Part shown: in pieces, positions 2,600 to 29,988 of the stretch
How the letters are laid out: the number at the start of each line of letters is the position of its first letter
Numbering within the stretch: position 1 is the stretch's first letter
Virus record (IMG/VR): IMGVR_UViG_3300044815_000193
Span: 1 to 30,383 of that record
Strand: one strand, 5' to 3'
Length of the DNA stretch: 30,383 bases
Source of the DNA: a virus
Position numbers and translations under genes: made by a program
Notes under the pieces: model-generated
The model's database searches: none
Seen by the model: the letters and a program-made list of their open reading frames with translations, nothing else
What the model was told of the DNA's origin: nothing

Positions 2600-2612
2600 G
2601 TACATATTTGTG

Positions 2613-2641: not shown

Positions 2642-2647
2642 CCCTCC

Positions 2648-2977
2648 ATGTCGAACACCAGCACCGATACCGACCTCTACTTCGTCGTCACCGTCGCGAC
2701 CCATCGCGACGACCCCGCGCAGAGCGCGAAGGACCGCGGCGCGCCGGGATCGGCGATCACGGCCACGCCGCTCGTGCAGATGCGCGACGAGCCCGACGCC
2801 CTGTTCTGGACGCGCGTCGAGACCTTCGCGAAGACGGAGCGCGCGAAGCTCGAGACCGCCACGAAGCAGCAGCGCGACCTCGCCGCGAAGCTGGACCAGC
2901 TCGTCAGCGAGGCGCGCGCCGCGGGCTACAAGGAACTCGCCGTGAGTCTCGAGGACCTCGCGGAGGAGCACCTGTGA
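2648..2977 (+). CDS. Hypothetical helical protein, paralogue of the 951 gene
   Basis: This 109-residue product resembles the 113-residue product of 951-1292: a YFVV-V strand near the N-terminus, a variable middle, and a helical end with RAAGYKELAxxLEDLAEEHL. The ATG at 2648 is preferred over an in-frame GTG at 2633, because that GTG lies inside P3. The ATG coincides with the expected transcription start, so the mRNA should be leaderless. The GGAGGAG in its last codons can serve as ribosome binding site for the next gene. Confidence 0.8.
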   Translation: MSNTSTDTDLYFVVTVATHRDDPAQSAKDRGAPGSAITATPLVQMRDEPDALFWTRVETFAKTERAKLETATKQQRDLAAKLDQLVSEARAAGYKELAVSLEDLAEEHL

Positions 2978-3270
2978 TCACGCCTGATGAAGTACGCCGC
3001 CTGCAGGAGGTCGCGGACAAGGCCGACAACCTCGAGAAGCAGATGGACGCCAAGATCCGCGAGTGTGTGCGGGCGCGCGGTGCGATCGCGTCGGTCTCCG
3101 GGATCGGCAGCAGCGACCTCGCAGAGGAACTCGCCGACCGCTACCGCATCGCCGGGTACCACGTCGTGGTCACCGACATCTCCAGCGACCGCATGACCTC
3201 GCCGGCCGATTGGAAGGTCGAGGTCGACATCTCTATCAAAACAAAGCAGAAGAAGGAACCGAGCACCTGA
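2974..3270 (+). CDS. Hypothetical protein
   Basis: The 98-residue product starts with a charged helix of about 35 residues, probably a coiled coil, followed by an alpha/beta part (residues 40-90) and a basic tail. The N-terminus resembles, weakly, that of the 1292 gene, which occupies the equivalent place after the other paralogue. GTGA overlap with the preceding stop fixes the start. Function unknown. Confidence 0.7.
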   Translation: MITPDEVRRLQEVADKADNLEKQMDAKIRECVRARGAIASVSGIGSSDLAEELADRYRIAGYHVVVTDISSDRMTSPADWKVEVDISIKTKQKKEPST

Positions 3271-3485
3271 TGCCGATCAAGAACGAGGGCAAGCCGAAGA
3301 AGCGCCTCTACACCGTCACCCTGAAGCGGACCATCGAGCACAGCGCTGTGGTCGATGACGTCGCGGCGACGAGCGCAACCGAGGCGATCGAGAAGGCCAT
3401 CAAGATCGCGGACGAGCACGACGCGAACCAGTGGCGCGAGGGCGACACGATCGGCGAGGACTCGAGCGCCAAGGTGCAGAGCTGA
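3270..3485 (+). CDS. Hypothetical small protein
   Basis: This 71-residue protein has a basic N-terminus, a beta strand (RLYTVTLKRTIEHSAVV) and a helix (SATEAIEKAIKIADEH). The strand-helix pattern is common in small phage proteins of unknown role. It overlaps its upstream neighbour by one base (TGATG) and its downstream neighbour likewise. Third gene of the P3 unit. Confidence 0.7.
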   Translation: MPIKNEGKPKKRLYTVTLKRTIEHSAVVDDVAATSATEAIEKAIKIADEHDANQWREGDTIGEDSSAKVQS

Positions 3486-3679
3486 TGGCTGGGAGCCGCG
3501 AGAAGGTGCTCGTGTCGCTCGCGCCCGACGTGATCGCGTTGATCGACGAGCGCGCGAAGTGGCACCGCATGAACCGTTCGCAGTACATCGCGGCGCGTTG
3601 CCTCGGACTGCTCGGCGATCCCGGAGATAAGAACGACGAGGACGAGCTGAAGAAGGCCGACCTCGGAGGTCCAACATGA
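3485..3679 (+). CDS. Ribbon-helix-helix DNA-binding protein
   Basis: The 64-residue product fits the CopG/Arc ribbon-helix-helix fold: strand EKVLVSLAPD (residues 6-15), a first helix (VIALIDERAKWH), a turn with Asn-Arg-Ser and a second helix (QYIAARCLGLL). RHH dimers normally insert the paired strands into the major groove and act as repressors. This one is a candidate binder of the TGAC-N3-GTCA dyads in P2-P4, which is inference. The acidic tail is specific to this protein. Member of the P3 unit with 1-base and 4-base overlaps. Confidence 0.75.
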   Translation: MAGSREKVLVSLAPDVIALIDERAKWHRMNRSQYIAARCLGLLGDPGDKNDEDELKKADLGGPT

Positions 3680-4182
3680 GCAACACCACCAAGGTCGAGG
3701 ACATGACGTCGCTGCTCGTGCCGCACCTCAGCGCGCGCGGCGTCGCGATCGTCACGAACATCCGACGTCCGACCGCACCTCAAGTCGCTGATGGCGAGTT
3801 GTTGGGTGACGTGTTCTACCTGACGACCCGCACGGCGCACGCGACCGTCGAGTTCGCGCGTCGCCTCGACGCCGTCTTCGCGTTGTTCGACGGGGTCCGC
3901 CGCTATGCGTCGGCGTGGGGCGTCATGTCGCCACACATCGACGCGCTGCTGTCACCACCGATGCGGATGCCGCTCGGATGTTACTCGTGGGAGGGCGGCG
4001 AGCCCGTGCGCTGCGCAGGTCCCGTGCGTGACCTCCTGCTGGTGTATCCCTACGTCGACGGTGCTCCGACCGCGATCTACGAAGACGTGCGCCTCTGGCT
4101 GAACGACGTCATCGCGGAGGGCTGCGGCGAGGAACGTCTCCAGTTCGAGCGCGCCGGCGACGTCGGAGGCATTGTCCTGTGA
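3676..4182 (+). CDS. Hypothetical protein
   Basis: This 168-residue soluble protein is among the larger products of the early region and has no family I recognise. It is alpha/beta in appearance with a central helical stretch (HATVEFARRLDAVFALFDGVRRYA). The start is supported by GGAGG at 3665-3669 and an ATGA overlap. Its stop overlaps the GTG of the next gene. Confidence 0.75.
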   Translation: MSNTTKVEDMTSLLVPHLSARGVAIVTNIRRPTAPQVADGELLGDVFYLTTRTAHATVEFARRLDAVFALFDGVRRYASAWGVMSPHIDALLSPPMRMPLGCYSWEGGEPVRCAGPVRDLLLVYPYVDGAPTAIYEDVRLWLNDVIAEGCGEERLQFERAGDVGGIVL

Positions 4183-4355
4183 GCGACGCCGCGAAGCTCG
4201 CGTCACCCGCGCCCGTCGTGTGCGATCGCTGCAATGGTGAGGGCTGGTACGTCGGTCCCGCGTTTGGCGGGTACGGACGCTACTGCACGTGCCCGAAGGG
4301 TGAGGACCTGATGCGCTGCGGGTCCGAGCTACCACCGCCGGGATCGAAGTCGTAG
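4179..4355 (+). CDS. Mini-protein with DnaJ-like CxxCxGxG half-site
   Basis: The 58-residue product carries CDRCNGEG (Cys15, Cys18), which matches one CxxCxGxG repeat of the DnaJ zinc finger, followed by CTCPKG (Cys36, Cys38) and Cys47. A single zinc site is likely. Such mini-ribbons occur in phages without known function. GTG start with a four-base overlap; it ends the P3 unit, and P4 begins 10 bases after its TAG. Confidence 0.7.
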   Translation: MSDAAKLASPAPVVCDRCNGEGWYVGPAFGGYGRYCTCPKGEDLMRCGSELPPPGSKS

Positions 4356-8609: not shown

Positions 8610-8870
8610 TCACGGGTTGGCGATCTTGTTGAGCTTCTGGACGTCGATGTGCTGCGGCATGCGCCGCGGAAAGTGGCGAAGCTTGATGTTCTTCTTGCGG
8701 AGGCGATTCGCGATCGCAGACACCGAGTTGTGCTTGATGTTGAGCGCCTTCGCGATCTCGCCGATCGAGTTCGCGGTCCGCCACAGCTTGACGAACTGCT
8801 CGTAGTTCACAGCCGGCGGTCGCCCACCCTTGCTCGCGGTCTTCTTCTTCTTCTTTTCTTTGGGCTTCAT
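8610..8870 (-). CDS. HTH regulator with Lys-rich N-terminus
   Basis: The 86-residue product has a run of lysines (residues 2-12) and then a homeodomain-like or sigma-like helix-turn-helix (about residues 22-62: FVKLWRTA, IGEIAKALNIK, SVSAIANRLRKK). It is probably a transcriptional regulator of the RyR unit and perhaps of divergent thyX. The ATG lies 7 bases after a -10 box on the minus strand, so this mRNA should also be nearly leaderless. Confidence 0.75.
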   Translation of the reverse strand: MKPKEKKKKKTASKGGRPPAVNYEQFVKLWRTANSIGEIAKALNIKHNSVSAIANRLRKKNIKLRHFPRRMPQHIDVQKLNKIANP

Positions 8871-8898
8871 TTACATATCGATACGTGGCCTGTAGAAG
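8870..8898 (+). promoter_or_regulatory. Candidate thyX promoter
   Basis: TTTACA (8870-8875), 17 bases and TAGAAG (8893-8898) precede a 26-base leader with AAGGA six to seven bases before the thyX ATG at 8931. The overlap with the minus-strand P5 means the two units probably compete or are jointly controlled. Confidence 0.5.
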
Positions 8899-8906
8899 AA
8901 TGTCAA
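8878..8906 (-). promoter_or_regulatory. Minus-strand leaderless promoter P5
   Basis: On the minus strand TTGACA (8906-8901) is followed by exactly 17 bases and TATCGA (8883-8878), then 7 bases to the ATG at 8870. Spacing matches P1-P4, although the -10 box is weaker and the TGAC-N3-GTCA dyad is absent. It overlaps the candidate thyX promoter on the other strand. Confidence 0.6.
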
Positions 8907-8930
8907 ACCAACAACAACAAGGAAATGAAC

Positions 8931-9830
8931 ATGACCAACTTCGATCCTGACGTGCGCACCACCAAGAACGGCACCCGATATCTGAAGGAAGCGGGCGTCG
9001 CGCTCGTCGCCAAACCTCAATTCATCCCGATGAATGCCACGCCGTTCGTGGGCAGCTTCGGCGACACCTTCGACGCGGCCGACTACGAGAACGACTTCTA
9101 CGTGTCCAGCACGAACGCCGGGATGCAGCAGGCATGTGATCAATCCATCGACCATGGTGCTGCGCTGTGCAAGCTCGCCGGGCAGACTTGCTACCTGAGC
9201 TTCGGCGAGAAGCGCTCGCGTGCCGCCGACGCACAGCGCTACTTCGACAACATCAAGGAGCAGGCTCATGGGAGCGTGTTGGAACACGCGAACTACTCGT
9301 TCCTCGTGTGGGGCATCGATCGCGCTGCGTCGCACGAGGCCGTGCGGCATCGCGCAGGGTTCGGGTACAGCCAGCTCTCGCAACGCTACGTGAACGGCGT
9401 GACGCTGCGCTTCGTCGAGCGTCCCGAGTACCAGGACAACCCGGAACTCCACGAGACGTTCGAGTCGTGGATCGACAGCGCCGCGGTCGAGTACGAGCGG
9501 CGTGCGCGAATGCTCGGTGAGGTGTACGCGCGCGATCCGTCGTTCACCGCGCTCCCGGCAACCGAACGTCGCAAGACGGTCAACCAGGCAGCGCGCAACT
9601 GCCTCCCGAACGAGACGGAGACCGCGATGGTCATGACGGGCAACGCGCGTTCGTGGCGTCACTTCCTCGAGATGCGCGCGAGCCGCCACGCCGACCTCCC
9701 GATCTCGCGGCTCGCGCTTCGCATCGGTGCGATCCTCAAGGAGGTTTCGCCGATCTTGTTCAGCGACTACACCGAGGAGACCTCGCCCACCGGTCGCGTG
9801 AGTCTCACCACGCAGTACAAGAAGGTCTAG
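8931..9830 (+). CDS. thyX: Flavin-dependent thymidylate synthase ThyX
   Basis: ThyX makes dTMP from dUMP using methylene-tetrahydrofolate, FAD and NADPH. The 299-residue protein shows HGSVLEHANYSF (residues 113-124), the signature RHR at 139-141 followed by SQLSQRY, and the C-terminal block ARNCLPNETET ... NARSWRHFLEMR. The usual signature is RHRxxSxNxxS; here the spacing reads RHR-AGFGYSQLS, a variant. The length is at the upper end for the family. ATG 8931 is preferred to ATG 8925 because AAGGAA is better spaced. It should use dUMP derived from the dCTP deaminase route encoded at 14726. Confidence 0.95.
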   Translation: MTNFDPDVRTTKNGTRYLKEAGVALVAKPQFIPMNATPFVGSFGDTFDAADYENDFYVSSTNAGMQQACDQSIDHGAALCKLAGQTCYLSFGEKRSRAADAQRYFDNIKEQAHGSVLEHANYSFLVWGIDRAASHEAVRHRAGFGYSQLSQRYVNGVTLRFVERPEYQDNPELHETFESWIDSAAVEYERRARMLGEVYARDPSFTALPATERRKTVNQAARNCLPNETETAMVMTGNARSWRHFLEMRASRHADLPISRLALRIGAILKEVSPILFSDYTEETSPTGRVSLTTQYKKV

Positions 9831-15564: not shown

Positions 15565-15592
15565 CGTATGATGCGTCGGAGGAAGAATTCCA

Positions 15593-15790
15593 ATGGCACT
15601 GTCAGTTCCCGGAGCAAAGCAGAAGCGGCGCGCCAAGAAGAAGGCCGCGAAGGCGAAGACAGGCAAGCAGCAAGGGTCGAGCCCGAAGCGCGGCGGCGGC
15701 AAGAGCCGTCTCGGAAAGCGCAACGCCAACGTGAAGGTGCGGCGCGGGAAGTCGTCGAAGGCGAAGGCGGGATCGTCGACCAGCGGCTGA
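15593..15790 (+). CDS. Highly basic, histone-like small protein
   Basis: The 65-residue product consists largely of Lys, Arg, Ala, Gly and Ser, like the tails of histone H1 or other DNA-condensing proteins. It has no globular domain. The ATG has GGAGG about ten bases upstream and a TATGAT box at 15567. A competing long frame over the same bases would extend the following PP-loop protein upstream, but it lacks an ATG with a good site, so this frame is preferred. Confidence 0.6.
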   Translation: MALSVPGAKQKRRAKKKAAKAKTGKQQGSSPKRGGGKSRLGKRNANVKVRRGKSSKAKAGSSTSG

Positions 15791-15810
15791 CGCCGCTTGC
15801 GTCGGCGACG

Positions 15811-16530
15811 ATGCTCCTGCGCGAGGCGCACAAGGTCTCCAGCAAGATCGGCGTCGGGCTCAGCGGCGGCAAGGACTCGCTCACGACGCTCGACCTGTGC
15901 GTCCGCGAGTTCGGTGCTGCGAACGTGCGGTGCTTCTTCATGTACCTCGTGAAGGACCTGCGATGTGTCGAGACGACGATCCGGTGGTGCGAGAAGCACT
16001 ACAAGATCGAGGTGCTCCGCGTCCCACACTGGCAGCTCGGGCGCGCGTACAAGTACGCCGTGTTCATGCCGCACCGCACCGGCGCGGATCAGATGCGCGA
16101 CATGAAGCTGACCGACGTCGAGCAGCTGGTCCGCGCGAAGACCGGCGTCGAGTGGATCGCCTACGGGCACCGCATGGCTGACTCGATCGAGCGCGTCGGC
16201 ATGCTCAGCAACAACGAGGGGCACGACGAGGCCGGACGCCGCGTCTACCCGCTGTGGCGGTGGAACGAGGCGTCGGTCGTCGCGTACCTGCGCGCGCGCA
16301 AGATCCCGCCGCCGCCGAAGATCACCATCCTCAAGCGCGCGATGACGGGCATCTCCTTCCAGGAGGACGTCCTGCTCGCGATCCGCGACAAGTTCCCGGA
16401 CGACTTCGCGAAGATCCTGGAGGTGTTCCCCTACGTGGAGGCGAAGCTCGCGCGCTACGAGTTCCAGAAGAAGAGCTGGAAGCAGAAGACATACATCGAC
16501 AAGTTCAAGACCTCACTGAAGGGAAGATGA
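15811..16530 (+). CDS. PAPS-reductase-like PP-loop protein
   Basis: The 239-residue protein starts MLLREAHKVSSK and has the PP-loop signature SGGKDS at residues 18-23, used to adenylate substrates. It also has VYPLWRWNEASVVAYL and a C-terminal region typical of phage PAPS-reductase-family proteins. No CxxC redox pair is obvious, so it need not be a true sulphate-assimilation reductase. ATG 15811 is the first start in frame after the preceding gene; it lacks a clear ribosome binding site. A ParB-like gene follows after one small gene, the IbrA/IbrB arrangement known from phages and islands. Confidence 0.85.
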   Translation: MLLREAHKVSSKIGVGLSGGKDSLTTLDLCVREFGAANVRCFFMYLVKDLRCVETTIRWCEKHYKIEVLRVPHWQLGRAYKYAVFMPHRTGADQMRDMKLTDVEQLVRAKTGVEWIAYGHRMADSIERVGMLSNNEGHDEAGRRVYPLWRWNEASVVAYLRARKIPPPPKITILKRAMTGISFQEDVLLAIRDKFPDDFAKILEVFPYVEAKLARYEFQKKSWKQKTYIDKFKTSLKGR

Positions 16531-16703
16531 GCATGAAGCCACGCATCGTGATCACGGTGGTCACCGAGGATTCCAAGTACGAGTTCTCGAACGTCAAGGG
16601 ACGCGAGCTGAAGGACGGCAGCCCATCGCCGGGACCGACCAAGAAGCAGTTCGACATCATCTACAAGGCGATCGCAGACATCTGCAACGCGGAGCCGAAG
16701 TGA
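16527..16703 (+). CDS. Hypothetical small protein
   Basis: The 58-residue product lies between the PP-loop and ParB-like genes with four-base overlaps on both sides. It has a beta hairpin (RIVITVVTEDSKYEF) and a C-terminal helix with a single Cys. It may be an accessory of the pair; nothing more can be said. Confidence 0.7.
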   Translation: MSMKPRIVITVVTEDSKYEFSNVKGRELKDGSPSPGPTKKQFDIIYKAIADICNAEPK

Positions 16704-17680
16704 ATAAGAAGAAGCCGAAGGTCGACGCCGGCGAAGCGGTGCTCCACCCCGATCAGAAGTTCGTCCCCGGACGCATCAGCCGATCGCAGATCAAGAACGC
16801 GCCGTACAACCCACGGCAGATCGACGACCACGCGCGCAAGAAGCTGGCCGACAACATCAAGAAGAAGGGGCTGCTCGAGGCGCTCGTCTGGAACAAGCGC
16901 AACGGCAACCTCGTCTCCGGCCACCAGCGGCTGAGCATCCTGGACGCGCGCGCCGCGGAGAAGAAGCTCGCGAACTACCTGCTCGATGTCAGCATCTGCG
17001 ATCTGAGCGACGCGGACGAGAAGGAGCAGAACATCTTCTTCAACAACCCGAGCGCGCAGGGCACGTACACGGCCGATGAACTCGGGAAGATGTTCTCAGA
17101 CGGCGTCGACTACAAGCGCGCCGGGTTCGACGACATGGACCTGCAGCTCATCTTCGAGGGCACGGAGTACGAGGTCACGATGTTCGACACCGAGGACGCG
17201 CCGGCGTCGGTGAAGGACGACCTCGAGCAGCTCGAAGAGATCCAGCGCATGAAGCGCGAACGCAAGGAGCACCGCGAGCGCGACAAGGACGCGAACGACC
17301 CGGAGTTCATCGCCGTGGTGGTGTTCCCGGATCGCGAGGCGCAGGGGCAGTTCATGGAGCGCGTCGGGCTGAGCAAGAACGAGCGGTACGTCGACGGCGT
17401 CCGCCTCCACACGTCGCTCGAGGCTGCGAAGCCGCAGACGCGCACGAAGGGTGGCGAGGAGTTCGAGGCGCTCACGTTCTGGGTCGCGCGCGATCAGAAG
17501 GAGGTCATCGAGGGCGAGCTGGTGCGGCTCGGATCGCTGATGAAGGGCAAGAACATCCGCGGGCGCGCGCTCGAGGCGATGGCCGTGGTGTCCGGGCAGA
17601 CGCCCATCAACAACATCACTGGTGAGGAACCCGAGCCAGAGTTAGAATTCAAGCCGAAGAAGAAAAAGAAGGTGACGTGA
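16700..17680 (+). CDS. ParB-like nuclease-domain protein
   Basis: The 326-residue protein has the ParB/Srx-fold signature: APYNPRQ (34-40), LADNIKKKGLLEALVW (49-64) and VSGHQRLSIL (72-81). The GHQR motif is the conserved nucleotide-binding or hydrolytic element. The C-terminal half has a long charged helix (about 185-205) and an FIAVVVFPDREAQ domain common in phage ParB-like proteins, then an acidic linker and a Lys-rich end. Such proteins act as CTPases, nucleases or partners of DNA-modifying enzymes. GTGA overlap with the preceding small gene. Confidence 0.85.
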   Translation: MNKKKPKVDAGEAVLHPDQKFVPGRISRSQIKNAPYNPRQIDDHARKKLADNIKKKGLLEALVWNKRNGNLVSGHQRLSILDARAAEKKLANYLLDVSICDLSDADEKEQNIFFNNPSAQGTYTADELGKMFSDGVDYKRAGFDDMDLQLIFEGTEYEVTMFDTEDAPASVKDDLEQLEEIQRMKRERKEHRERDKDANDPEFIAVVVFPDREAQGQFMERVGLSKNERYVDGVRLHTSLEAAKPQTRTKGGEEFEALTFWVARDQKEVIEGELVRLGSLMKGKNIRGRALEAMAVVSGQTPINNITGEEPEPELEFKPKKKKKVT

Positions 17681-18715: not shown

Positions 18716-19990
18716 ATGAGCGCAGGAACGGTCATCAGCGGCGGCTTCCCGGGTCGCGTCGCGCAGGAAGTTCAGCCGAACGCGAAGTGCAACGGGTGTC
18801 TCCACTTCGACGGCCAGGCCGGACGGACCGGGGTGTGCACGATCGGACTTCGGCCCTGGTTGTGTGGCGAAGACGGCAGCGCGGCCGACATCGGCTACGC
18901 GCCGATCGCACGTGGTGCCGGTTCGTACCTGCCCGACATGAACAACCACGGCGCGCACGCGTCGAGCGTTGCTCCGCAGGAGTCGGCGGACCTGTACGGT
19001 GTCGGGTCGACGCGTCCGGTGGCGTTCCAGGAAGTATCGCTCGGCGAGGAGCACGTCCGTTTCGTGAAGAGCGTCTTCGCGAACCACGTCACCCAGCAGC
19101 GCGAGATGTGCAGGATGTGCAAGAGCATCGGTACGACGATCGGCACCGGGCCGGCGAACAACGGACCACAGGTCTGCACGTGCGAGCCGATCGAGGCACG
19201 CTCGATCGCGAAGTCGCTCATCCCGCGGCTGTCCAACCGTGAACGCCTGGTCATCGACCTCAGCGACGCCACCGACTTCGTCTACTCCGTGATCAAGGGC
19301 GACGGGATCGCGAAGGGGACCTTCTACCACCACCACGGCAAGTACGAGGTCTCGCCTTCGGGCAAGGGTCAGCAGCACGTCGACTTCCACCCACGCGGCG
19401 GCGGCGAGACGACGCGCGTCGGCACGTTCGACACGCACAAGGAGGCACGGCGCGCTTCGGAGCATCACGCGCGTCGGTTCGCGCATGGCACCGGCGCGGA
19501 GAACAAGCCGTATGAGCACTCGAACGCGGCGCCGACCCACACCGCCGCCGAGCACACGGTGCGCGCGCACGCCGGCGCGAAGGAGAAGCCGAAGAGCACG
19601 CACACGCCTGCGGGTCTGCCTTCGATGAAGGAGGCGGTGAGCGTCGTCGGCAAGTCGGAGACCGCCGTCCCACACGTTTCGCACTTCAAGTCGCCGCACG
19701 GCAACTACAAGGTGGAGTCGAACCACAGCACCGGGGAGCACACCGTCCACTACACGCCCAAGGCCGGAGCGAAGGCACCGGCGCAGTCGGTGAAGATGCC
19801 GAGCCACGAGCACGCCGTGAAGATGGCGAAGGTGCACGCCTTCGTGAACGATCACGACGGCGAGCACTCACACGCCACGATGCATCACGATCACGTCGCG
19901 GTGCACGAGCCGCACAGCGGCCCGGACGGCGGCGCGGCCACGCACAAGGTCACGTCGATGGGAAGCGCGCGCGAGCACCTGGGGTACTAA
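18716..19990 (+). CDS. His-rich protein with two four-Cys clusters
   Basis: This 424-residue protein is unlike any family I know. The N-terminal half has two clusters: Cys25, 28, 41, 50 and Cys132, 135, 154, 156, each enough for one zinc or an iron-sulphur site. The C-terminal half is very rich in His and contains a degenerate repeat: residues 204-254 (HHHGKYEVSPSGKGQQHV) and 324-377 (SPHGNYKVESNHSTGEHTV). It sits 3 bases before the portal gene, where a terminase would be usual, but shows no Walker motifs. It may be a virion or packaging-associated metal-binding protein. Confidence 0.75.
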   Translation: MSAGTVISGGFPGRVAQEVQPNAKCNGCLHFDGQAGRTGVCTIGLRPWLCGEDGSAADIGYAPIARGAGSYLPDMNNHGAHASSVAPQESADLYGVGSTRPVAFQEVSLGEEHVRFVKSVFANHVTQQREMCRMCKSIGTTIGTGPANNGPQVCTCEPIEARSIAKSLIPRLSNRERLVIDLSDATDFVYSVIKGDGIAKGTFYHHHGKYEVSPSGKGQQHVDFHPRGGGETTRVGTFDTHKEARRASEHHARRFAHGTGAENKPYEHSNAAPTHTAAEHTVRAHAGAKEKPKSTHTPAGLPSMKEAVSVVGKSETAVPHVSHFKSPHGNYKVESNHSTGEHTVHYTPKAGAKAPAQSVKMPSHEHAVKMAKVHAFVNDHDGEHSHATMHHDHVAVHEPHSGPDGGAATHKVTSMGSAREHLGY

Positions 19991-19993
19991 CCG

Positions 19994-21784
19994 ATGTCCG
20001 AAGTGATCGACGAAGCTCCCACGACTCCGGCGCTCGCCGCGCTCCCACCCGACATCCAGAAGGCGGTGAACGCGGCGTTCGAGGACCTGCGCGAGAAGGC
20101 GTGGTCGAACGAGGAGAAGCTCGCGAAGGAGCGCGCGCGTGCCAGCGACAACCAGCCGAAGGCGTTCTTCGCTGACCCGAACGCGCTGATGGACTCCGTC
20201 GGCATGGGCTATCGGAGCGCGCCGTCACACCTGACGTACGACACTCTCCGGCAGATCAGCGAGCGCGACACGTACATCGCCGCGATCCTCCTCACACGCA
20301 TCGACCAGGTCGCGTCGTTCACGCGTCCGCAGCCGAACAAATACAGCGTCGGGTTCCGGATCCAGCCGCGCCACAACAGCGACAAGAAGCAGATGACGGA
20401 CAGCGAGCGCGATCGCTGCAAAGAGATCCAGATGCTGCTCCTCAACACGGGGCGCGAGTACAACCTCGGCCGCGACGGCTTCCTGCAGTTCGTCCAGAAG
20501 TTCGTCCGCGACTCGCTGACGTACGACCAGGCGTGCGCGGAGACGGTGCGGACGCGCGGCGGCAGCGTGCACTCGTTCGCCGCCGTGCCGAGCGACACCA
20601 TCCGCACGGCGACCCCTCGGCAGATGAAGGGCACGCCGCCGCGCGTCGCCGACCTCCGCAAGGAGATCCGCTACGTCCAGGTCATCAACGCGGCGATCAC
20701 GGCGGAGTTCACCATCGACGAGATGGCGTTCGCGGTCCGCAACCCGCGGTCGTGGATCAAGGCGAACGGATACGGCGCGCCGGAGATCGAGACGCTGATG
20801 ACGACGGTGACGAGCCACCTGCACGCCGAGCAGTGGAACCAGAAGGCGTTCAGCCAGGGCTCGACGATGAAGGGCATCCTCAACATCAAGGGGAACATCC
20901 CGCCGGTCCAGTTCGAGGCGTTCAAGCGGCAGTGGCACTCGCAGGTCTCGGGCATCGCGAACGCGTGGAAGACGCCGATGCTCAACAGCGAGGACGTCCA
21001 GTGGCTACCCACCGGGATGAGCAACACCGAGATGGGCTACCAGATGTGGATGGAGTACCTCATCAAGATCACCACGGCGATCTTCCGGATCGACCCGGCG
21101 GAGATCAACTTCGACCTCCGCGGCGGCGTCGGGCAGCAGCCCGTGTTCATGTCGTCGAACGAGGCGCAGCAGAAGGCATCGAAGGATCGCGGCCTGCAGC
21201 CGCTCATGCGGTTCGTGGAGGACACGATCAACCGCCACATCGTGTTCAAGATCGATCCGCGCTTCGAGATGGCGTTCGTCGGACTCGACGCGAAGACCGA
21301 GGAGCAGGCGCAGCAGCTCCGCATGCAGCAGGTCCAGAACACGCACACGCTCAACGAGGTGCGCGCGATGGACGATCTGCCGCCCGTGCAGTACGGCGAC
21401 AACGTGATGAACGCGACGTACATCGGATACAAGATGCAGAAGGAGCAGGCGGCGATGATGGCGCAGCAGCAACCGCAGCAGGCCACGCCGGCAGCTGGCG
21501 GTCAGCCCGCGCCGCCGCCGCGCTTCGCGCAGGCGCCCGGTGACGAGGAGGAGCACGGCGCGGATCAGCTCCGCCAGTTCGCCGAGCCGACCGCGTCCGC
21601 GAAGCCCGATCAGAGTGGCGGAGGCGGCAACGCCGACGGAGCCGCGGACGACGAGTCGAGCGGGCCGGATCCGAAGACGCTCTCGCGCCTCCACATCGAC
21701 GACTGGGACTCGGTGATGACGCACTCACTGCGCACCGACGACCTGAAGAAGTCGGCGCTGTTCGACACGATCGACATCGACTGA
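19994..21784 (+). CDS. Portal protein
   Basis: The 596-residue protein fits tailed-phage portal proteins, which form the dodecameric ring at the head vertex through which DNA passes. Visible marks are SERDTYIAAILLTRIDQV near residue 90, a helical core with TMKGILNIKGNI, the segment TGMSNTEMGYQMWMEYLIKI and FRIDPAEINFDLRGG near 360, and a long Gln/Ala/Pro-rich C-terminal tail. The length is at the upper end of the usual range because of that tail. It is the firmest anchor of the head module. Confidence 0.9.
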   Translation: MSEVIDEAPTTPALAALPPDIQKAVNAAFEDLREKAWSNEEKLAKERARASDNQPKAFFADPNALMDSVGMGYRSAPSHLTYDTLRQISERDTYIAAILLTRIDQVASFTRPQPNKYSVGFRIQPRHNSDKKQMTDSERDRCKEIQMLLLNTGREYNLGRDGFLQFVQKFVRDSLTYDQACAETVRTRGGSVHSFAAVPSDTIRTATPRQMKGTPPRVADLRKEIRYVQVINAAITAEFTIDEMAFAVRNPRSWIKANGYGAPEIETLMTTVTSHLHAEQWNQKAFSQGSTMKGILNIKGNIPPVQFEAFKRQWHSQVSGIANAWKTPMLNSEDVQWLPTGMSNTEMGYQMWMEYLIKITTAIFRIDPAEINFDLRGGVGQQPVFMSSNEAQQKASKDRGLQPLMRFVEDTINRHIVFKIDPRFEMAFVGLDAKTEEQAQQLRMQQVQNTHTLNEVRAMDDLPPVQYGDNVMNATYIGYKMQKEQAAMMAQQQPQQATPAAGGQPAPPPRFAQAPGDEEEHGADQLRQFAEPTASAKPDQSGGGGNADGAADDESSGPDPKTLSRLHIDDWDSVMTHSLRTDDLKKSALFDTIDID

Positions 21785-21793
21785 GAGGTCACG

Positions 21794-23803
21794 ATGAGCG
21801 CCGGACCATACGCATTCATCAAGCAGGGAAACCTGTTCGTCGCGCCCATCAAGCAGGTCGCGGCAGCACCATTGCCGTCGCTCGATCGCGCGCGCCGGTT
21901 CTCGATGTGGATCAACGGCAAGATCGAGGAACCACCGTTCCAGCTCGACCAGGCACCGATGCCACCGACCACGTTCCAGGCGGTGCGTGACGACATCAAC
22001 CGCTTCTCGCCGGTCAAGGTGAGTCGGTCGGCGCTTCGCCGATCACAGCACGCGTACGTCGGCGTGATCGACTCCAACGGGACGCCGTACCACTTCGCGC
22101 TCGACAGTCGCGGTTTCTCGATCGAGAAGGCGACGGTCGGTGATGCATGGAGGGCGTTCGACAAGCTCATCGACGAGGAGCGCGTCATGGCGACCGAGTC
22201 GCGCCGTCATCGCGCCGACGTCGAGATGCGCGACGTCGAGCACGAGCTGTCGTCGCCGCAACCGCCGCTACTCGTCATCATGAAGAGCGAGGTCGCGCGC
22301 GTCTCGCGATCTGGTCGTCAGTTCTCCGTGGCGACGTCGACGGGCAACACCGACGTCCCGTCGTCGAGCGCCGCCGAGGACGCGATCCAGCACCACCTCC
22401 CCTCTGGGTTCAAGGTCGGCGGCGCGGTCAACCTGCACCGCGCATCCGTCCACGAGGGCGCCCCGCGAGGCGCTGCCGATCCGGACGCCATCCACGTCAT
22501 GAAGCCGTCGGAGATCGCCGCGCGCGGCGTGCACGGCAACGAGCTGCATCCCGAACATCTCGATTCCATCCGAAGCGCGTGGAACGAGGGCAAGCGTCTC
22601 GACCCGATCGACGTCAACGTTACGCACGACGGTCAGTGGCACGTCGAGGATGGCAACCATCGTCTCCACGTCGCAGCTGCGACGGATGCGCCTGTGGCGC
22701 TCCGGTTTCGTCAGCAGAGCAAGGACTACCGACCGCAGGCCGGCGTCCGTGACATCTCGGATCGACTTCGCTCGGCGCAGAGCACGGAGAAGAGCGACTT
22801 CGACTGGAAGCGGAAGACCAAGGAGCGCGTCGGCAAGAAGCCGGAGCCGAGCCCGTTGACGAAGGCCGAGCAGCACACCGGGACGATGATCTCGCTGCAC
22901 CTCCCGGCCGAGCTTGCAGATCGGATCGCGCTGCCCGACGGAGAGTCGCCGAGCACGATGCACATCACGCTCGCGTACCTCGGCAAGGACCTCACGGAAG
23001 AGCAGAAGCTCGCCGCCGCGTGCGCGGTGCGTCGGTTCTCGCAGTACGCGTATCACGTGCGCGCCGTGCTCGGCGGCGTCGGGCGCTTCAGCGCGAGCAC
23101 CACCACCGAGGGTCGCGACGTCGTCTACCTCTCGGTGGACTCGCCCGACATCACGCGCCTGCGTCCGAAGCTGCTCGATGAGCTGGCTGCTGAGGGGTTG
23201 GTGCCGAACGACACGCACGGGTTCATCCCGCACGTCACGCTGGCGTACGTGGCGACCACCGCGCGCACGCCGATCAAGCGGTTCCCTCCGACGCCTGTCG
23301 AGTTCACGCGCGTGTCGCTCGCGGTAGCCAACACGCAGATCCACTTCCCGTTTCAACAGGAGCGCGCGATGTTGCAGGCCATCCACGGCTCTCAGCCGTC
23401 GCTCGTCATCAAAGCGCTGCCGAAGAAGCCGAAGACGGACGAAGCGAAGAAGACGCCGAACAAGAAGACGTCGAGCAAGAAGATCGGATCCGGCGGCAAG
23501 ACGCGCTATGGATACCTCGACGAGAAGAAGAAGAAACCGGCCGGCGGCGGCGCGAAGGGTCAGCAGCAGCTCGTGATCGTTCGTCACGACGACACCAAGC
23601 ACGCCGACCCGGGCGAACTCGCGAACCAGCTCGGTGTCTCGGTGCGCACGCTGCAGCGCGCGGCGGAGAAGCTCGGACGCGACGGCTTCGCGAAGTTCAT
23701 GCGTGCTCACCTCAAGCGGTTCAGCGCGAAGCACAGGATCGACCCGAGCTACTGGCATACGCTGCACACGAAGCTCGAGGCGATGTCGCCACCGACGTTC
23801 TAG
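21794..23803 (+). CDS. ParB-like / 2H phosphodiesterase / HTH fusion protein
   Basis: The 669-residue protein has several modules. Residues 1-150 are unassigned. Residues 235-305 look ParB-like (LHPEHLDSIRSAW, then VEDGNHRLHVAA with Asn288-His289-Arg290). Residues 360-520 carry two H-x-T motifs, MHITLAYLG (His390, Thr392) and PHVTLAYVA (His480, Thr482), the hallmark of LigT-like 2H phosphodiesterases. A Lys-rich linker (540-590) follows, then a helix-turn-helix (603-625, LANQLGVSVRTLQRAAEKLG) and a helical end. GAGAGG supports the ATG. It lies between portal and MuF, so it may be a virion protein. Confidence 0.8.
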   Translation: MSAGPYAFIKQGNLFVAPIKQVAAAPLPSLDRARRFSMWINGKIEEPPFQLDQAPMPPTTFQAVRDDINRFSPVKVSRSALRRSQHAYVGVIDSNGTPYHFALDSRGFSIEKATVGDAWRAFDKLIDEERVMATESRRHRADVEMRDVEHELSSPQPPLLVIMKSEVARVSRSGRQFSVATSTGNTDVPSSSAAEDAIQHHLPSGFKVGGAVNLHRASVHEGAPRGAADPDAIHVMKPSEIAARGVHGNELHPEHLDSIRSAWNEGKRLDPIDVNVTHDGQWHVEDGNHRLHVAAATDAPVALRFRQQSKDYRPQAGVRDISDRLRSAQSTEKSDFDWKRKTKERVGKKPEPSPLTKAEQHTGTMISLHLPAELADRIALPDGESPSTMHITLAYLGKDLTEEQKLAAACAVRRFSQYAYHVRAVLGGVGRFSASTTTEGRDVVYLSVDSPDITRLRPKLLDELAAEGLVPNDTHGFIPHVTLAYVATTARTPIKRFPPTPVEFTRVSLAVANTQIHFPFQQERAMLQAIHGSQPSLVIKALPKKPKTDEAKKTPNKKTSSKKIGSGGKTRYGYLDEKKKKPAGGGAKGQQQLVIVRHDDTKHADPGELANQLGVSVRTLQRAAEKLGRDGFAKFMRAHLKRFSAKHRIDPSYWHTLHTKLEAMSPPTF

Positions 23804-23830
23804 GTCCTGTACCCGGGTCGAGCACGCAGG

Positions 23831-23836
23831 TAGGCT
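23831..23836 (+). promoter_or_regulatory. TAGGCT -10-like box before the 23846 gene
   Basis: GGTAGGCT precedes the ATG at 23846 by 9 bases, as before the 18716 gene. No clear -35 is seen and no ribosome binding site is present. Weak evidence for a near-leaderless promoter. Confidence 0.3.
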
Positions 23837-23845
23837 CTGATCTAC

Positions 23846-25003
23846 ATGCCGGGTTCCCACACTAGTAAGCAGAAGCGGATGGCGCGCCACATCTACGAGA
23901 CGGCGAAGCGTGGAGGGCACGACGATCACGCGGCCGAGCGCATCGCGTGGGCGACGGTGGCTTCGTTCAAGAAGGCGTCGGCGATCGAGTATGGGGACAA
24001 CACTTCGGCGCGCGGAGGAGCTGGAACTATGGCTCCCAAGCCACCACCACAGCCCAAGGCTCCGACTCCGGCTCCGAGCATCACGACGTCGACGCCGAAC
24101 CACCAAGAGTTCGTGCAGCGCGTCCCGGTCAATCCAACTACTGCAGCTGATGGGACAGCTGGAACCACCGTGCCGCCTCGCGCTCCTGTGATGGTTGGGA
24201 GCCCTGGTGTAGGATCTCGAGTCGTGAAGGCAGATCCTCCGTCGATGAACGCGCAGTTCCAACTCTTGAACGACAAGATCCGTCGTCGCGCTCGTCGCAA
24301 GAAGCGCATCGCCAAGGCCGGCGAGGCATACCTCCCGAGACCGAAGACCAAGAACTCCTCTCCGCGTGAGCGGATGTCTCGCATGTCGTACGGGACTTCG
24401 GGGAAGCGCGTGAATCGTCTCGAGCAGCGGATGCAAGGAATCAAACCTCTCGGGACGCACACCGTCACTGCAACGGCACCTGCGTCAGCGCCGACGCGGT
24501 CAGCAGAAAAGCGCTTCGGCTTCGATGCTCATGGGAAGTCACTTCGCGTGGTGTCGATCGACGAAGCACACGCGATGCTGAAGGGTGAGGCAGGCGCGAT
24601 GCCGGCCGCGCCCGGAGCGCAGCCTCCGCCGAAGCGCTTCCCGCGCGGCGACAAGCCGACGATCAAGATGAAGCCGATCTCCGACGGCGAGGCGATGGCG
24701 AACCTGAAGGCAGGCAAGTTCCACGAGAAGTCGCTGCGCACGCTCGCCGCGATCAAGGCGCTCGTCGCTGGTTACGGGAACCTCGCCGGTGCCGACGCGC
24801 TCCGCTCGGCGAACCGCGGATCGCTCAGCATCCACGACCTCAACCGCGCGATGGAAGTGATGCCGAAGCCGAAGGGTGCCGTCCCTCCGCCGACGACATA
24901 CCTGCCTGGCGTCCATGGCCCCGACGTGAAGCAGCGCGCCGCTAAGATCCGGTCGCAGGCCCGCACCAAGAAGCCCGCAGCCGCATCCGCCGCCGCTCCC
25001 TGA
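23846..25003 (+). CDS. Hypothetical protein with basic helical N-terminus
   Basis: The 385-residue protein begins with SKQKRMARHIYETAK ... AAERIAWATVASFKKA, a short motif found in many phage and plasmid proteins near the N-terminus. It continues with Pro/Thr-rich low-complexity linkers, a basic region (RRRARRKKRIAKAG) and an Ala/Pro-rich C-terminus. Disorder is predicted by composition. A structural or DNA-binding head component is plausible; no enzyme motif is visible. Confidence 0.7.
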   Translation: MPGSHTSKQKRMARHIYETAKRGGHDDHAAERIAWATVASFKKASAIEYGDNTSARGGAGTMAPKPPPQPKAPTPAPSITTSTPNHQEFVQRVPVNPTTAADGTAGTTVPPRAPVMVGSPGVGSRVVKADPPSMNAQFQLLNDKIRRRARRKKRIAKAGEAYLPRPKTKNSSPRERMSRMSYGTSGKRVNRLEQRMQGIKPLGTHTVTATAPASAPTRSAEKRFGFDAHGKSLRVVSIDEAHAMLKGEAGAMPAAPGAQPPPKRFPRGDKPTIKMKPISDGEAMANLKAGKFHEKSLRTLAAIKALVAGYGNLAGADALRSANRGSLSIHDLNRAMEVMPKPKGAVPPPTTYLPGVHGPDVKQRAAKIRSQARTKKPAAASAAAP

Positions 25004-25603: not shown

Positions 25604-27013
25604 GTGAACCTCGACCAGCTATTCGGTGAAGGCGTCGAACTCGACGACGACGTAGTCATCAAGGCGCAGCTTCGCTTCCGCGTGCATCCGCCGGAGCATC
25701 CAGCTGCGCAGGCTCTCGTCGACCGCCTCGTGTCTTCGTACGACGAGCGGCTCGACATGATCTGCGAGGAGGTCGGCGACGTGCTCAAGCACTCCGACAT
25801 CCGCCGCAGCTCGCGCTCGCACGCGCTCGTGATCGGTCCGCCGCGCGACGTCGTGAAGGCTGCGGCGAGCAACCAGCCGATCGCGCCGGGCACGCGCGGT
25901 GGCAAGTGGTACCGCGACGGGACCGGGCACATCCGGTACGGCGAGAAGCCGATGGGTGCCGGCGCGAAGCCCGTCGGATCCGAGCACGTGCAGCCGCACG
26001 TCGAGCACTTCCGACCGTCGCAGTTCATGGGGATGCACGGCATCGATCGCGACCTGACCGGGTTCCTGATGACCGAGGGCGACAAGCACGGGTTCAAGAA
26101 GAACGAGCTGCGCTTCCTCGGCAACTGGTACGGGACCGCGACGAAGACCGGGTCGCTGTTCGACGCATTCCTCGATTGCGCGGGGATCACGCGCGAAGAC
26201 CTCGCCGGCGACATCACGCAGCTCCGCTTCGGCGCGCAGCAGCTCACGTATGAGGAGGCGGTGTTCGAGTTCTTCGCCGCGCAGCGCGCGCTGTTCCTCG
26301 GTGACGAGTCGGACGACGACAACGGCGAGAGCGATGACGGCGACGAGACGTGGGAGAGCATGCTGAACGACGAGATCCGTCCGCTCCTCGACAGCACGTT
26401 CAAGAAGTACGAGACGCTCAAGGAGGATCCGGCGTTCAAGGAGGCGTTCGCGCACGCGCCCGAGAACATCCGCCGCCGCTTCTTCGCGCGCGCTCATAAG
26501 TGTGAAGACGACACTAACCGCATCGCGACGGTCGTGATGAGCGCGTGGGATCCCGAGGCGCAGGTCAGCGCGGTGGTCGCGGGGATCGCGAAGCTCGGGC
26601 TGTTCACGCGCGCCGACGTCGCGCACCTGCACGACCAGCCGAACGTCGAAGGTGCCGACGTGTTCGACGACGCGCTCCTCACGGACGACGCGCGCAGCAA
26701 CCCGCTCCTCGTCGACGGAGGCAAGCTCGACAAGCTGACGGTCTCGCAGCTGATGCTGCTGCACGTCGCCGCCGAGATGCATCGTCGGTGGGATCCGGAC
26801 ACGCGCTCGTACTCGACCGAGGCGCAGGCCGACGTCGGTCCCGGAGCGCTCGGCGAGGCGACGTTGAACGCGATCGCGGAGCGTTCGCCGGAGTGGGCCG
26901 CTGCGACGAAGCTCCTCAGAGCGCACCTCGACACGGCGATCGATCGCATGGTCGCGTCGTTGAATCGTGCGCACGCCGAGGTCGACAAGCTGGAAGTGAG
27001 CGGCGATGAATAG
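25604..27013 (+). CDS. Hypothetical protein of the head module
   Basis: The 469-residue protein is acidic and mostly helical, with an N-terminal region LDQLFGEGVELDDDVVIKAQ. A linker motif, PGTRGGKWYRDGTGHIRYGE, starts near residue 93; this GG-K-W/Y-x-R-x-G type occurs in several phage head-associated and toxin-like proteins. A large unassigned helical domain follows (about 130-460). It starts at GTG with GAGGG upstream. No catalytic motif can be seen. Confidence 0.7.
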   Translation: MNLDQLFGEGVELDDDVVIKAQLRFRVHPPEHPAAQALVDRLVSSYDERLDMICEEVGDVLKHSDIRRSSRSHALVIGPPRDVVKAAASNQPIAPGTRGGKWYRDGTGHIRYGEKPMGAGAKPVGSEHVQPHVEHFRPSQFMGMHGIDRDLTGFLMTEGDKHGFKKNELRFLGNWYGTATKTGSLFDAFLDCAGITREDLAGDITQLRFGAQQLTYEEAVFEFFAAQRALFLGDESDDDNGESDDGDETWESMLNDEIRPLLDSTFKKYETLKEDPAFKEAFAHAPENIRRRFFARAHKCEDDTNRIATVVMSAWDPEAQVSAVVAGIAKLGLFTRADVAHLHDQPNVEGADVFDDALLTDDARSNPLLVDGGKLDKLTVSQLMLLHVAAEMHRRWDPDTRSYSTEAQADVGPGALGEATLNAIAERSPEWAAATKLLRAHLDTAIDRMVASLNRAHAEVDKLEVSGDE

Positions 27014-27419: not shown

Positions 27420-28351
27420 ATCGCACCATGACCCAGCTGCAGCGTCGCCGCATCCAGCAGATCATCTCGGACGGTCACCTCGCGTTCGTCGCCGAGATGT
27501 TCGGTCCGACGTCCATCGGGCACGACGATTACGTTCGTCTCCATGCCGCCGGCAAGATCCGAGATGACAAGCTCCTCCCACAGGACGTCGTACTCGCTGC
27601 CCATGCGCTGGGAGCGATCATGGGACACGCGCAGCTGTCGCCGGACATCACCCCGGGCGACCTCGTGCCGCACGACGCGCAGGTGATCACCGAGGCCGAG
27701 CGCGAAGCCGTCACGATCCTGCGCGACCGCCTCGGGCAGCACGTGCGCGGTCTCGGCAACCGTCTCGACACGGTCGTCGGTCACATTCTCGTGGACGCGG
27801 ACGACGCGATCCGTCGCGCGCGCGTCACCAAGCGAGCCCGCGCGTCCGACGTCGACCAGCGATCCGCCATGCTCGCAGTCGAGCAGAAGATCCGCCTCGC
27901 GATGCGCGACTTCCGACGCGACTGGATGCGTTGCGCGCACACCGAGATGCACAACGCCATGGAAGAGGCGAAGGCGATCGTGATCTCGCATCGCGGACCC
28001 GACCGCGACCCACGCGTGTTCAAGCGTCCACGACCTGATGCCTGCAGGTTCTGCGTCATGCTCTACCTGCGTCCCAACAAGATCACGCCACGCGTGTTCA
28101 AGCTCAGTGAGCTGCTCGCGAACGGATCGAACGTCGGCCGGCGCGCCGGACAGCCGACACGATCTGGCAGCTCACGAACCGAGTGGAAGGCTACGCTCGG
28201 TGCCGTGCATCCGTTCTGCAAGTGTCCGCTCCACGTGCTCCCCGAAGGCTTCGGCTTCGATCGCAAGGGTGCGCTCGTGCGCTCCAAGAATTTGATCACG
28301 GTCGACAAGCTCGACAAGGCTCTCCTCGCGCACGAGTGCGAGACGCCGTGA
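27416..28351 (+). CDS. MuF-like minor head protein
   Basis: The 311-residue protein has the expected plan of phage Mu F-like head morphogenesis proteins: a long helical N-terminal region with WMRCAHTEMHNAMEEAK, followed by the Cys/His end CRFCVMLYLRPN ... LGAVHPFCKCPLHVLP. These proteins assist early head assembly at the portal vertex and may be ejected. GTG start with a GTGA overlap. The kinase-like gene follows with another GTGA overlap. Confidence 0.8.
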   Translation: MNRTMTQLQRRRIQQIISDGHLAFVAEMFGPTSIGHDDYVRLHAAGKIRDDKLLPQDVVLAAHALGAIMGHAQLSPDITPGDLVPHDAQVITEAEREAVTILRDRLGQHVRGLGNRLDTVVGHILVDADDAIRRARVTKRARASDVDQRSAMLAVEQKIRLAMRDFRRDWMRCAHTEMHNAMEEAKAIVISHRGPDRDPRVFKRPRPDACRFCVMLYLRPNKITPRVFKLSELLANGSNVGRRAGQPTRSGSSRTEWKATLGAVHPFCKCPLHVLPEGFGFDRKGALVRSKNLITVDKLDKALLAHECETP

Positions 28352-29205
28352 CGCGCTTCAGCTCCATCGTCACGCACGAGAAGCCGCAGAAGCTCGAGCC
28401 CGCACCCGGAGGCAAGAGCGGCGCGCTGCTCGCCACCTACGAAGGCGGCGTGCGCGCGATCATCAAGCAGGCGAAGGAGAAGCTGCCGAGCGGACACAGC
28501 AAGCAGCGCGGCATCCCCGTCAGCACTCACCCGTTTCGCGAGGCCGCGTTTCGCCGCGCCGCCGATCTCATCGGCTGCAGCGACCTCGTGCCGGAGACCG
28601 TGCTGACGATGAAGGCGGTCCCGGGCATCGCCTCCGCGCAGCTCTTCGTTCCCGCGCATCACCTCAACGAGCTGCAACCGAAGTTGAAGGACGTCAGCGA
28701 CAAGCGCTGGGGCTCGCTCCTCGCGAAGACGTGCGAGGTCGTGCCCGCCGACACGTGGCGGAAGCTCCTGGTGCTCGACATCCTCGGCGGCGTCCGCGAT
28801 CGTCACGTCAACAATGTCGGGGTCATCATGCGGTCGGAAGGAGGTCGCCCGGTCTACCAGGCGGTCGCGTGGGACAACGCGGTCTCGTTCGGGAAGACGT
28901 TCGACCTCTACCACAACGTGTTCCACAAGTTTCTCTTTCGCCGATCCGTCGACCTCGGCGGTGCGTGGAAGATCGTCGACAAGATCACGAAGTCCGACCT
29001 GCACTACGCTCTCGACGAGTTCCTCCCGCGTGACTTCGTCGACGACGCGTTCAAGCGTGTCTCGTTCTTCCGCGACTTCCCGTACCGGCTGCCGTTCAAG
29101 GTCTGCAGCAAGGGCGAGGACTCACCCAACGAGTTCCCGACCTACGCACACTACTTCAACCCTGTTGTGGCGCGGCCACTTCACCTGGTACACGTGCAGG
29201 CGTGA
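28348..29205 (+). CDS. PI3/4-kinase-like (HipA-like) protein kinase-fold protein
   Basis: The 285-residue protein has the order of motifs expected for bacterial kinases of the PI3/4K or HipA-related superfamily. They are a possible Lys40 in VRAIIKQAK, Glu65 in PFREAAFRRAADLIG, IASAQLFVP, the catalytic loop GGVRDRHVNN (Asp151, His153, Asn156), and a metal-binding AVAWDNAVSFG (Asp176) in place of DFG. All key polar residues appear intact. It directly follows the MuF-like gene in the head operon, so it could modify virion or host proteins, or nucleotides. GTG start with GTGA overlap. Confidence 0.75.
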   Translation: MTRFSSIVTHEKPQKLEPAPGGKSGALLATYEGGVRAIIKQAKEKLPSGHSKQRGIPVSTHPFREAAFRRAADLIGCSDLVPETVLTMKAVPGIASAQLFVPAHHLNELQPKLKDVSDKRWGSLLAKTCEVVPADTWRKLLVLDILGGVRDRHVNNVGVIMRSEGGRPVYQAVAWDNAVSFGKTFDLYHNVFHKFLFRRSVDLGGAWKIVDKITKSDLHYALDEFLPRDFVDDAFKRVSFFRDFPYRLPFKVCSKGEDSPNEFPTYAHYFNPVVARPLHLVHVQA

Positions 29206-29235: not shown

Positions 29236-29988
29236 ATGCGTGAAGATGTAGAGCGTCTGCTCGAGAAGGACGAGTTCACCGTGTGGGCTCCGGCTTGTCT
29301 CGAGATCCTCGAGAAGAGCAGCACGTCCGGCATCGACATCGAGACCACGCGTCCGATCGGCGGCTGGTGCTCGACGGAGAACCTCGATCGTCAGGACGAG
29401 ATCGTCGTCGCGAAGGGTCTCGACTTCAGCGAGTTCGTCGCGTTCGGCTACTTCAATGACAACCACAAGCAGGACACCTCGGCGGTGCTCGGCTACCCGC
29501 GCGTCGCGCGGCTCGAGAAGAGCCGGTGGTGGACGGAGGGCAACCTGCTCACCGGCTACGCGCCCGCCGACAAGGTGTGGGAACTCGCGAAGGCGATGAA
29601 GAAGTCGTCGGCACCGCGCAGCCTCGGATTCTCCATCGAAGGCAAGGTCCTCGAGCGCGACGGTGGAAATCGGATCGTCCGCGCGAAGGTGCGGAACGTC
29701 GCGATCACCAACGCGCCGGTGAACACCGACTGCCTCTGGGGAATCTTGAGCAAGGCGTTCGCGCCGCTCGCAGCCGTGGAGAATGCTCAACGCAAGGCCC
29801 TGGCGGAAAATTCGTCACTGGTGCAGAGTGTCGGAGTAAGCCCCCGCGACAATCACGTGAACAGCATCTTCCATGAACGCAACGATCATCTGTCGCTCGA
29901 CGAAGCGATCGATCGCGTTCACCGGATCCACCCGCACCTCAGTGCTGCGGCGTGCCGCCGCGTCGTCGATTTCGCGATGAGTCGCTGA
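29236..29988 (+). CDS. Prohead (capsid maturation) protease
   Basis: The 250-residue protein matches HK97-type prohead serine proteases, which trim scaffold and capsid during maturation. It shows GWCSTENLDRQDEIV (43-57), the catalytic His in NDNHK (His77), GNLLTGYA, and RSLGFSIEGKV with the nucleophile Ser133, then RNVAITNAPVNTD. The C-terminal 70 residues may be part of the scaffold or a tag. GAGGG precedes the ATG. A TACTAT box at 29214 could be a promoter but lacks a -35. Confidence 0.85.
   Translation: MREDVERLLEKDEFTVWAPACLEILEKSSTSGIDIETTRPIGGWCSTENLDRQDEIVVAKGLDFSEFVAFGYFNDNHKQDTSAVLGYPRVARLEKSRWWTEGNLLTGYAPADKVWELAKAMKKSSAPRSLGFSIEGKVLERDGGNRIVRAKVRNVAITNAPVNTDCLWGILSKAFAPLAAVENAQRKALAENSSLVQSVGVSPRDNHVNSIFHERNDHLSLDEAIDRVHRIHPHLSAAACRRVVDFAMSR

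Follow-up and report, generated by a model that had tools for sequence, protein, structure and literature searches.

Why would a phage encode, among its virion genes, a single chain that joins domains as unlike as a ParB-like segment, a 2H phosphodiesterase and an HTH-like domain? The question is raised by P0001, a protein encoded in the 30,383-nucleotide viral sequence analysed here (the window), which has the portal gene immediately upstream and the prohead protease gene downstream and belongs to a phage known here from this one contig. The first-pass annotation had considered P0001 a fusion that could be packaged, delivered at the start of infection and, as is known for the phage enzyme Acb1, directed against the cyclic nucleotides of CBASS. 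The reading that we moderately favour, on the strength of sequence comparisons and models, is that P0001 is a head-packaged cargo polyprotein whose 2H module would be freed in the head, injected and act on a defence nucleotide.

The P0001 gene and its surroundings

The start, the frame and both ends of P0001 are kept in its relatives. The parts of the gene and the surrounding head genes are listed below, a slash marking the predicted cut; the cuts are presumed to be made, in P0001 as in other head proteins, by the prohead protease encoded at 29236..29988.

21794..23803, + strand: P0001, cargo-carrier open reading frame of 669 residues; ATG start, orthologs with the same opening sequence
21794..22285, + strand: N-terminal carrier domain, residues 1-164; conserved in 10 relatives
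22283..22285, + strand: K164, predicted prohead-protease site 1, LLVIMK/SEVARV; motif at the junction
22286..22864, + strand: inserted module, residues 165-357, ParB-like core at about 230-310; phrog_1033, alignment
22649..22663, + strand: DGNHR motif, residues 286-290; sequence
22862..22864, + strand: K357, predicted prohead-protease site 2, PSPLTK/AEQHTG; motif match
22865..23413, + strand: 2H phosphodiesterase module, residues 358-540; PF13563, AF2 model, PDB fold matches
22961..22969, + strand: first catalytic motif, H390-x-T392; sequence, alignment
23231..23239, + strand: second catalytic motif, H480-x-T482; sequence, alignment
23411..23413, + strand: K540, predicted prohead-protease site 3, PSLVIK/ALPKKP; invariant in orthologs
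23414..23803, + strand: basic linker and C-terminal HTH-like domain (605-663), residues 541-669; ortholog alignment, model
19994..21784, + strand: portal protein, directly upstream of P0001; PF04860, 1.7e-24
25604..27013, + strand: conserved head-module protein; predicted sites DDVVIK/AQ and RDVVK/AAA
27416..28351, + strand: MuF-like minor head protein; weak call (VG15, E 0.013), kept in relatives
29236..29988, + strand: prohead (head maturation) protease; phrog_1028, 4.8e-47

The portal protein carries predicted sites near both of its ends (LPPDIQK/A and DDLKK/S), and the prohead protease is present in every relative that extends that far. The earlier placement of P0001 between portal and MuF is right as to order but not as to adjacency, four open reading frames preceding the weakly called MuF-like gene. 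Antisense open reading frames such as 22268-24460 (- strand) were rejected as genes; they are GC-rich artefacts, and it is the + strand that encodes the conserved proteins. The head-module gene at 28348-29205, which separates the MuF-like gene from the protease gene, encodes a protein kept in most relatives; it resembles a HipA/PI-kinase-like fold, contains DRHxxN...D-like motifs (RDRHVNNVGV...AWDNAVSFG) and matches PADLOC PDC-M03A weakly. The window also encodes ThyX (8649-9830), a PAPS-reductase-like protein (15568-16530) and a stand-alone ParB-like protein (16700-17680; phrog_9353, 7.8e-58), and in relatives the latter two genes keep together as a block that precedes the head genes.

Within P0001, residues 58-153 are predicted to be folded in the full-length model, and the N-terminal carrier domain that contains them (residues 1-164) gave no Pfam match, its fold family being left unassigned by Pfam. 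The HTH (about 605-663) is kept in orthologs and modelled as confident helices. The DGNHR segment aligns to phage ParB-like DGHHR proteins, with DG(N/H)HR and neighbouring conserved residues present. Both elements are thus there as first described, although the HTH scores under the Pfam cut-offs and the ParB-like call is weak by HMM: the phrog_1033 match reaches 1.8e-4, and ParB_N in Pfam matched neither P0001 nor the ParB-like segment searched alone. Residues 155-359 have a pLDDT mostly below 50, a single sequence carries the ParB-like segment, and the region is unresolved in the full-length model. The segment was absent from every other ortholog found, and viral contigs scanned with one query sequence, either whole P0001 or the ParB-like segment, yielded no relative. 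A ParB-2H pair as a conserved unit was accordingly rejected, as was Mycobacterium phage Littleton gp95 as a ParB-2H homologue, the match spanning residues 236-487 and the annotated protein lacking DGNHR.

The 2H domain and its candidate substrates

The 2H domain of P0001 is almost certainly a real enzyme. It matches PF13563 over residues 387-497 (1.4e-11, 45.1 bits against a cut-off of 27), and the AF2 model of the module has a mean pLDDT of 91.2. The two HxT motifs reported at the outset (His390/Thr392 and His480/Thr482) are intact; in an alignment of 85 sequences, the equivalents of H390 and H480 are invariant and those of T392 and T482 at least 90% conserved. The best fold matches in the PDB are E. 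coli LigT (5ldm, E 3.2e-10) and drCPDase, the Deinococcus CPDase (Z 18.5), the LigT/CPDase-type enzymes as a whole scoring Z 16-18.5. Next come Usb1 (Z 15) and, from rotavirus, the VP3 2'-5' phosphodiesterase (Z 14.5); Acb1 (7t26, Z 11.1) and the penguinpox cGAMP enzyme (Z 10.4) are both more distant. The top NCBIfam match, RNA 2',3'-cyclic phosphodiesterase TIGR02258, is sub-threshold, and a match to arginine kinase 4rf6 (E 0.005) was set aside as a chance match from repeats. Model and matches together bear out the 2H fold. The domain belongs to the LigT / 2'-5' RNA ligase family, with Acb1 as a more distant fold relative, and the LigT-type fold and the conserved HxT motifs therefore predict that it works as a 2H phosphodiesterase. 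E. coli LigT / ThpR and drCPDase, its best structural matches, share the fold and the HxT/HxT motifs at about 22% identity but are stand-alone cellular enzymes.

The 2H family points to 2',3'-cyclic phosphates or 2'-5' linkages as substrate, and since the best fold matches are RNA 2',3'-cyclic phosphodiesterases, an RNA substrate is by family at least as likely as an immune signal. That the 2H module acts on a defence nucleotide signal is a tentative proposal which we place just short of even; a counter-signalling role would suit an injected, optional and swappable 2H enzyme that is sometimes paired with a Nudix hydrolase. Somewhat unlikely, in our estimate, is a role in RNA repair or processing, in which the 2H enzyme would work on tRNA or mRNA that host anticodon nucleases have cut, resolving 2',3'-cyclic phosphate ends or acting as an RNase. 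LigT, drCPDase and Usb1 are the closest structures, in keeping with such a role, as is the sub-threshold TIGR02258 match, and Iyer et al. (PMC5512222) favour RNase or 2'-5'A-degrading functions; the same authors, however, never saw such 2H domains with RNA ligases, and neither RNA ligase (PF09414) nor RtcB (PF01139) was found in seven related records. These records may be incomplete, so their lack of both enzymes weakens RNA repair and leaves it a possible role.

The idea of a specific Acb1-like anti-CBASS nuclease, as first put forward, is doubtful, and we likewise give little weight to CBASS as the specific target of the 2H module. P0001 and the phage-encoded Acb1 of T4/FBB1 have the 2H fold and the HxT/HxT tetrad in common, LigT-like phosphodiesterases outside the Acb1 family degrade cGAMP (PMC11410667), and a phage enzyme labelled Acb1 (9q2g) is a weak hit of the 2H clade profile (E 0.003). 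Kinship to Acb1 nevertheless did not hold up, because LigT-type enzymes match far better (Z 16-18.5 against about 11) and the Acb1 family in Pfam (PF23474) gave no match to P0001 at E up to 1. In L047 and L048, two relatives with a Nudix domain, PF23474 matched at sub-threshold level only (0.0048 and 0.062). T4/FBB1 Acb1 is thus a distinct family without a sequence-family match to P0001, and the accessible part of its description reports no virion context.

Conserved ends, exchanged middles and a lysine motif

A search baited with the portal retrieved 12 related loci; two further contigs came from an N-domain search, and L047 and L048 from a search with the 2H domain, six closer 2H sequences being used in place of a 15-sequence alignment that was too divergent for scanning. 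In most relatives the portal gene is followed directly by an ortholog that has the same N-domain (about 165 residues) and ends in a common KALPKK linker and HTH domain, with an unrelated middle. This middle is a 2H domain in L016/L017 and L018, Nudix plus 2H in L047 and L048 (NUDIX at 3.8e-13 and 8.4e-16), DUF5661 in L019 and L020, other segments in L021, L028 and L040, and almost nothing in L026; among the orthologs found, P0001 is the only one with ParB-like plus 2H cargo. In L025, the N-domain sits on a protein of ~1,850 residues with topoisomerase IB, and the C-terminal domain is a separate gene; this protein (L025 14533-20103) has a eukaryotic-type topoisomerase IB (PF01028, 5.8e-32) fused to the carrier N-domain after 'SLVIKADIKQPGSRGGKF'.

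Homology to P0001 in tblastn stops at residues 164-165 in L019, L020 and L023 and restarts at 537-540 in L019, L021, L026 and L028, breakpoints that coincide with K164 and K540. K540-A541-L542-P543 is invariant in 11 of 11 aligned orthologs with unlike cargo. The conserved N-terminal domain and the basic HTH-like C-terminal domain would thus bracket a swappable effector slot, which in P0001 would hold the ParB-like module and the LigT/CPDase-type 2H phosphodiesterase.

Other head-module genes vary in comparable ways. In the L020 gene at 2379-4187 the KALPKK junction occurs twice (residues 371 and 470), as though duplication of a protease site had brought in an extra cargo module. The protein at 25604-27013 has 469 residues in the window and 1,655, 1,500 and 1,463 in relatives (the L026/L034 region G008_18000_22967, G009 and G010), with [LIVF]-x-K-[AS] sites near the N-terminus, and seems to be a second expandable carrier. 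The gene at 18716-19990, just upstream of the portal, has a conserved N-terminal part (about 194 residues), a remainder that varies in relatives and five motif matches, and is a possible third cargo gene.

In every ortholog whose junction can be recognised, this consists of a hydrophobic residue, any residue, Lys and then Ala, Ser or Gly, for example LVIMK/S, LIIK/A, LVVSK/A and LVITK/G upstream and VIK/ALPKK downstream. A K164-type motif occupies the same junction in P0002, L018, L019, L020, L021, L028 and L040. K357 precedes the conserved HTGTM start of the 2H domain by four residues, and this spacing, from Lys to H(T/S)GTM, recurs in P0002, L018, L047 and L048, whose 2H modules likewise have a site on either side; the Nudix-bearing L047 and L048 have no clear site between the N-domain and the Nudix domain. 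K164, K357 and K540 all lie in low-confidence (low-pLDDT) linkers. K112, which also fits the motif, sits inside the folded N-domain and for this reason was left out of the likely cuts. The motif is short, and the four matches in P0001 are not significant taken alone.

Because the junctions resemble a maturation-protease site, the motif was tested across the whole lineage. In the window, G003, G006 and G008, the head-module proteins contain 136 occurrences of [LIVF]-x-K-[AS] against 40.9 expected from shuffled residues (3.3-fold, z 16.5), and the tail and other proteins 11 against 15.7. The motif had been picked after the junctions in relatives were viewed, and hold-out genomes and residue-swap controls were run for that reason; the hold-out result, the fairer number, is 77 against 27.0 in the head proteins of G009 and G010 (z 9.4) and 12 against 14.3 in their other proteins. 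No enrichment was seen in these genomes when R, E, D or Q was swapped for K, and of the twenty residues tried at X in [LIVF]-x-X-[AS], Lys alone was enriched (144 against 50). The major capsid protein has one site near its N-terminus (K26, DELSK/ALSAGYQ), the portal and the protease have sites at both ends, and an acidic scaffold-like head protein has 8-10; in G009/G010, KALSAG is common to the N-terminus of the capsid protein and the C-terminus of the protease. The prohead proteases of other phages cut at such places, namely the capsid N-terminus, the ends of portal and protease, and the scaffold. Enrichment and placement together make [LIVF]-x-K/[AS] very probably the prohead-protease site of this lineage, and no reading that would account for it better emerged.

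Predicted maturation and published precedents

By tblastn, 367 phage records contain the 2H domain; nearly all are of phages of Actinobacteria, and the annotations read 'RNA ligase', 'head maturation protease' or 'MuF fusion'. Those records that were opened have the domain within or close to the head module. A portal was detected in 29 of 50 metagenomic viral records; in 26 of these 29 the 2H domain shares the portal's strand and is less than 8 kb away, 13 of the 26 having the two fused.

We propose that, as the head matures, the prohead protease would cut past Lys164, Lys357 and Lys540 (motif [LIVF]-x-K/[A/S/G]). The predicted pieces are the N-domain (18.5 kDa), the ParB-like module (21.1 kDa), the 2H module (20.0 kDa) and the basic linker plus HTH (14.3 kDa, pI 10.3). 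A free 20 kDa 2H enzyme (residues 358-540) would be left among the internal head proteins, would enter the host with the DNA and may there break a cyclic or 2'-5'-linked nucleotide (or a 2',3'-cyclic phosphate) of early host defence. The suggestion that the 2H domain could be packaged gains from the protease-site signature, the portal linkage and the portal fusions in relatives, on which we judge packaging in the head to be highly likely; cutting of P0001 by the prohead protease is likely. The working form is probably the free 2H enzyme in the capsid rather than a ParB-2H-HTH fusion, since the predicted sites part the modules and the ParB-like segment is absent from other orthologs; the fusion stands as a single open reading frame but probably not as a working protein. 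We hold it to be an even call whether the carrier is cut in trans at every module boundary, which would free several enzymes (ParB-like and 2H here, Nudix and 2H elsewhere) for simultaneous injection. In phage SPN3US, the protease's own cuts aside, cleavage only trims N-terminal propeptides (PMC10052503), which counts against a polyprotein, as multi-product cutting would be unusual.

P0001 might instead be packaged and injected whole, as a polyvalent protein in which the motif is a docking or capsid-targeting peptide and the ParB-like or HTH domain anchors the 2H enzyme to the phage DNA. Polyvalent proteins with 2H fused to MuF or portal were reported by Iyer et al. 2017, portal-2H fusions, for which no cutting is required, are common here as well, and a basic HTH domain closes every ortholog. 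We regard this alternative as unlikely, because the placement of the motif (capsid N-terminus, portal and protease ends, scaffold-like protein) fits a maturation-protease site, the homology breakpoints fall at the sites and orthologs do without the ParB-like module. A purely structural head protein whose 2H fold only binds nucleotide or RNA is very improbable: most relatives do keep the carrier ends without any 2H domain, but this makes the 2H domain an optional insert and not a structural constant, and its catalytic tetrad is kept over 85 diverse sequences.

The head-packaged cargo polyprotein that we favour has clear precedents. Fusions of 2H domains to MuF and portal were described by Iyer et al. 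2017 (PMC5512222), who suggested that they act as RNases or degrade nucleotide signals, and a 2022 study (PMC9503650) considered such 2H domains probably packaged and injected against nucleotide signalling. The central idea of the first-pass annotation, a head-packaged 2H enzyme aimed at nucleotide signalling, is therefore prior art and not novel. Like P0001, these polyvalent proteins have 2H in the head module, are predicted to be packaged and injected, possibly counter nucleotide-based immunity and have diverse other domains in like positions. They differ in that P0001 has its carrier encoded on its own beside the portal gene, with a middle that can be swapped and modules delimited by predicted sites for a prohead protease acting in trans, whereas peptidase domains embedded in the protein were invoked for the polyvalent proteins (PMC5512222). 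In the actinophage head-module '2H/RNA ligase' genes, such as Gordonia phage Paries gp17, Arthrobacter phage Salgado gp18 and Streptomyces phage Abt2graduatex2 gp11, 2H likewise has portal, MuF, protease and capsid genes around it or is part of a fusion with protease or MuF; 2H alone is common to them and P0001 (about 30% identity), and carrier ends of the P0001 type, a ParB-like module and the motif were not seen in them. The protease of SPN3US (gp245; PMC10052503) offers a parallel to our proposal as a short-motif prohead protease that trims internal and ejected head proteins, but its cuts strip N-terminal propeptides, whereas those predicted in P0001, after Lys, would free several modules from one chain. 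The apparent novelty lies in the layout, a swappable cargo slot in a carrier with modules delimited by predicted protease sites.

If this reading is right, the carrier ends and [LIVF]-x-K/[AS] would reveal the injected effectors of this lineage from sequence alone, anything between sites beside the portal being cargo, and a motif scan and a one-gel test would tell which proteins are injected and in what form. By the predicted mechanism, early effectors could be exchanged without rebuilding packaging signals.
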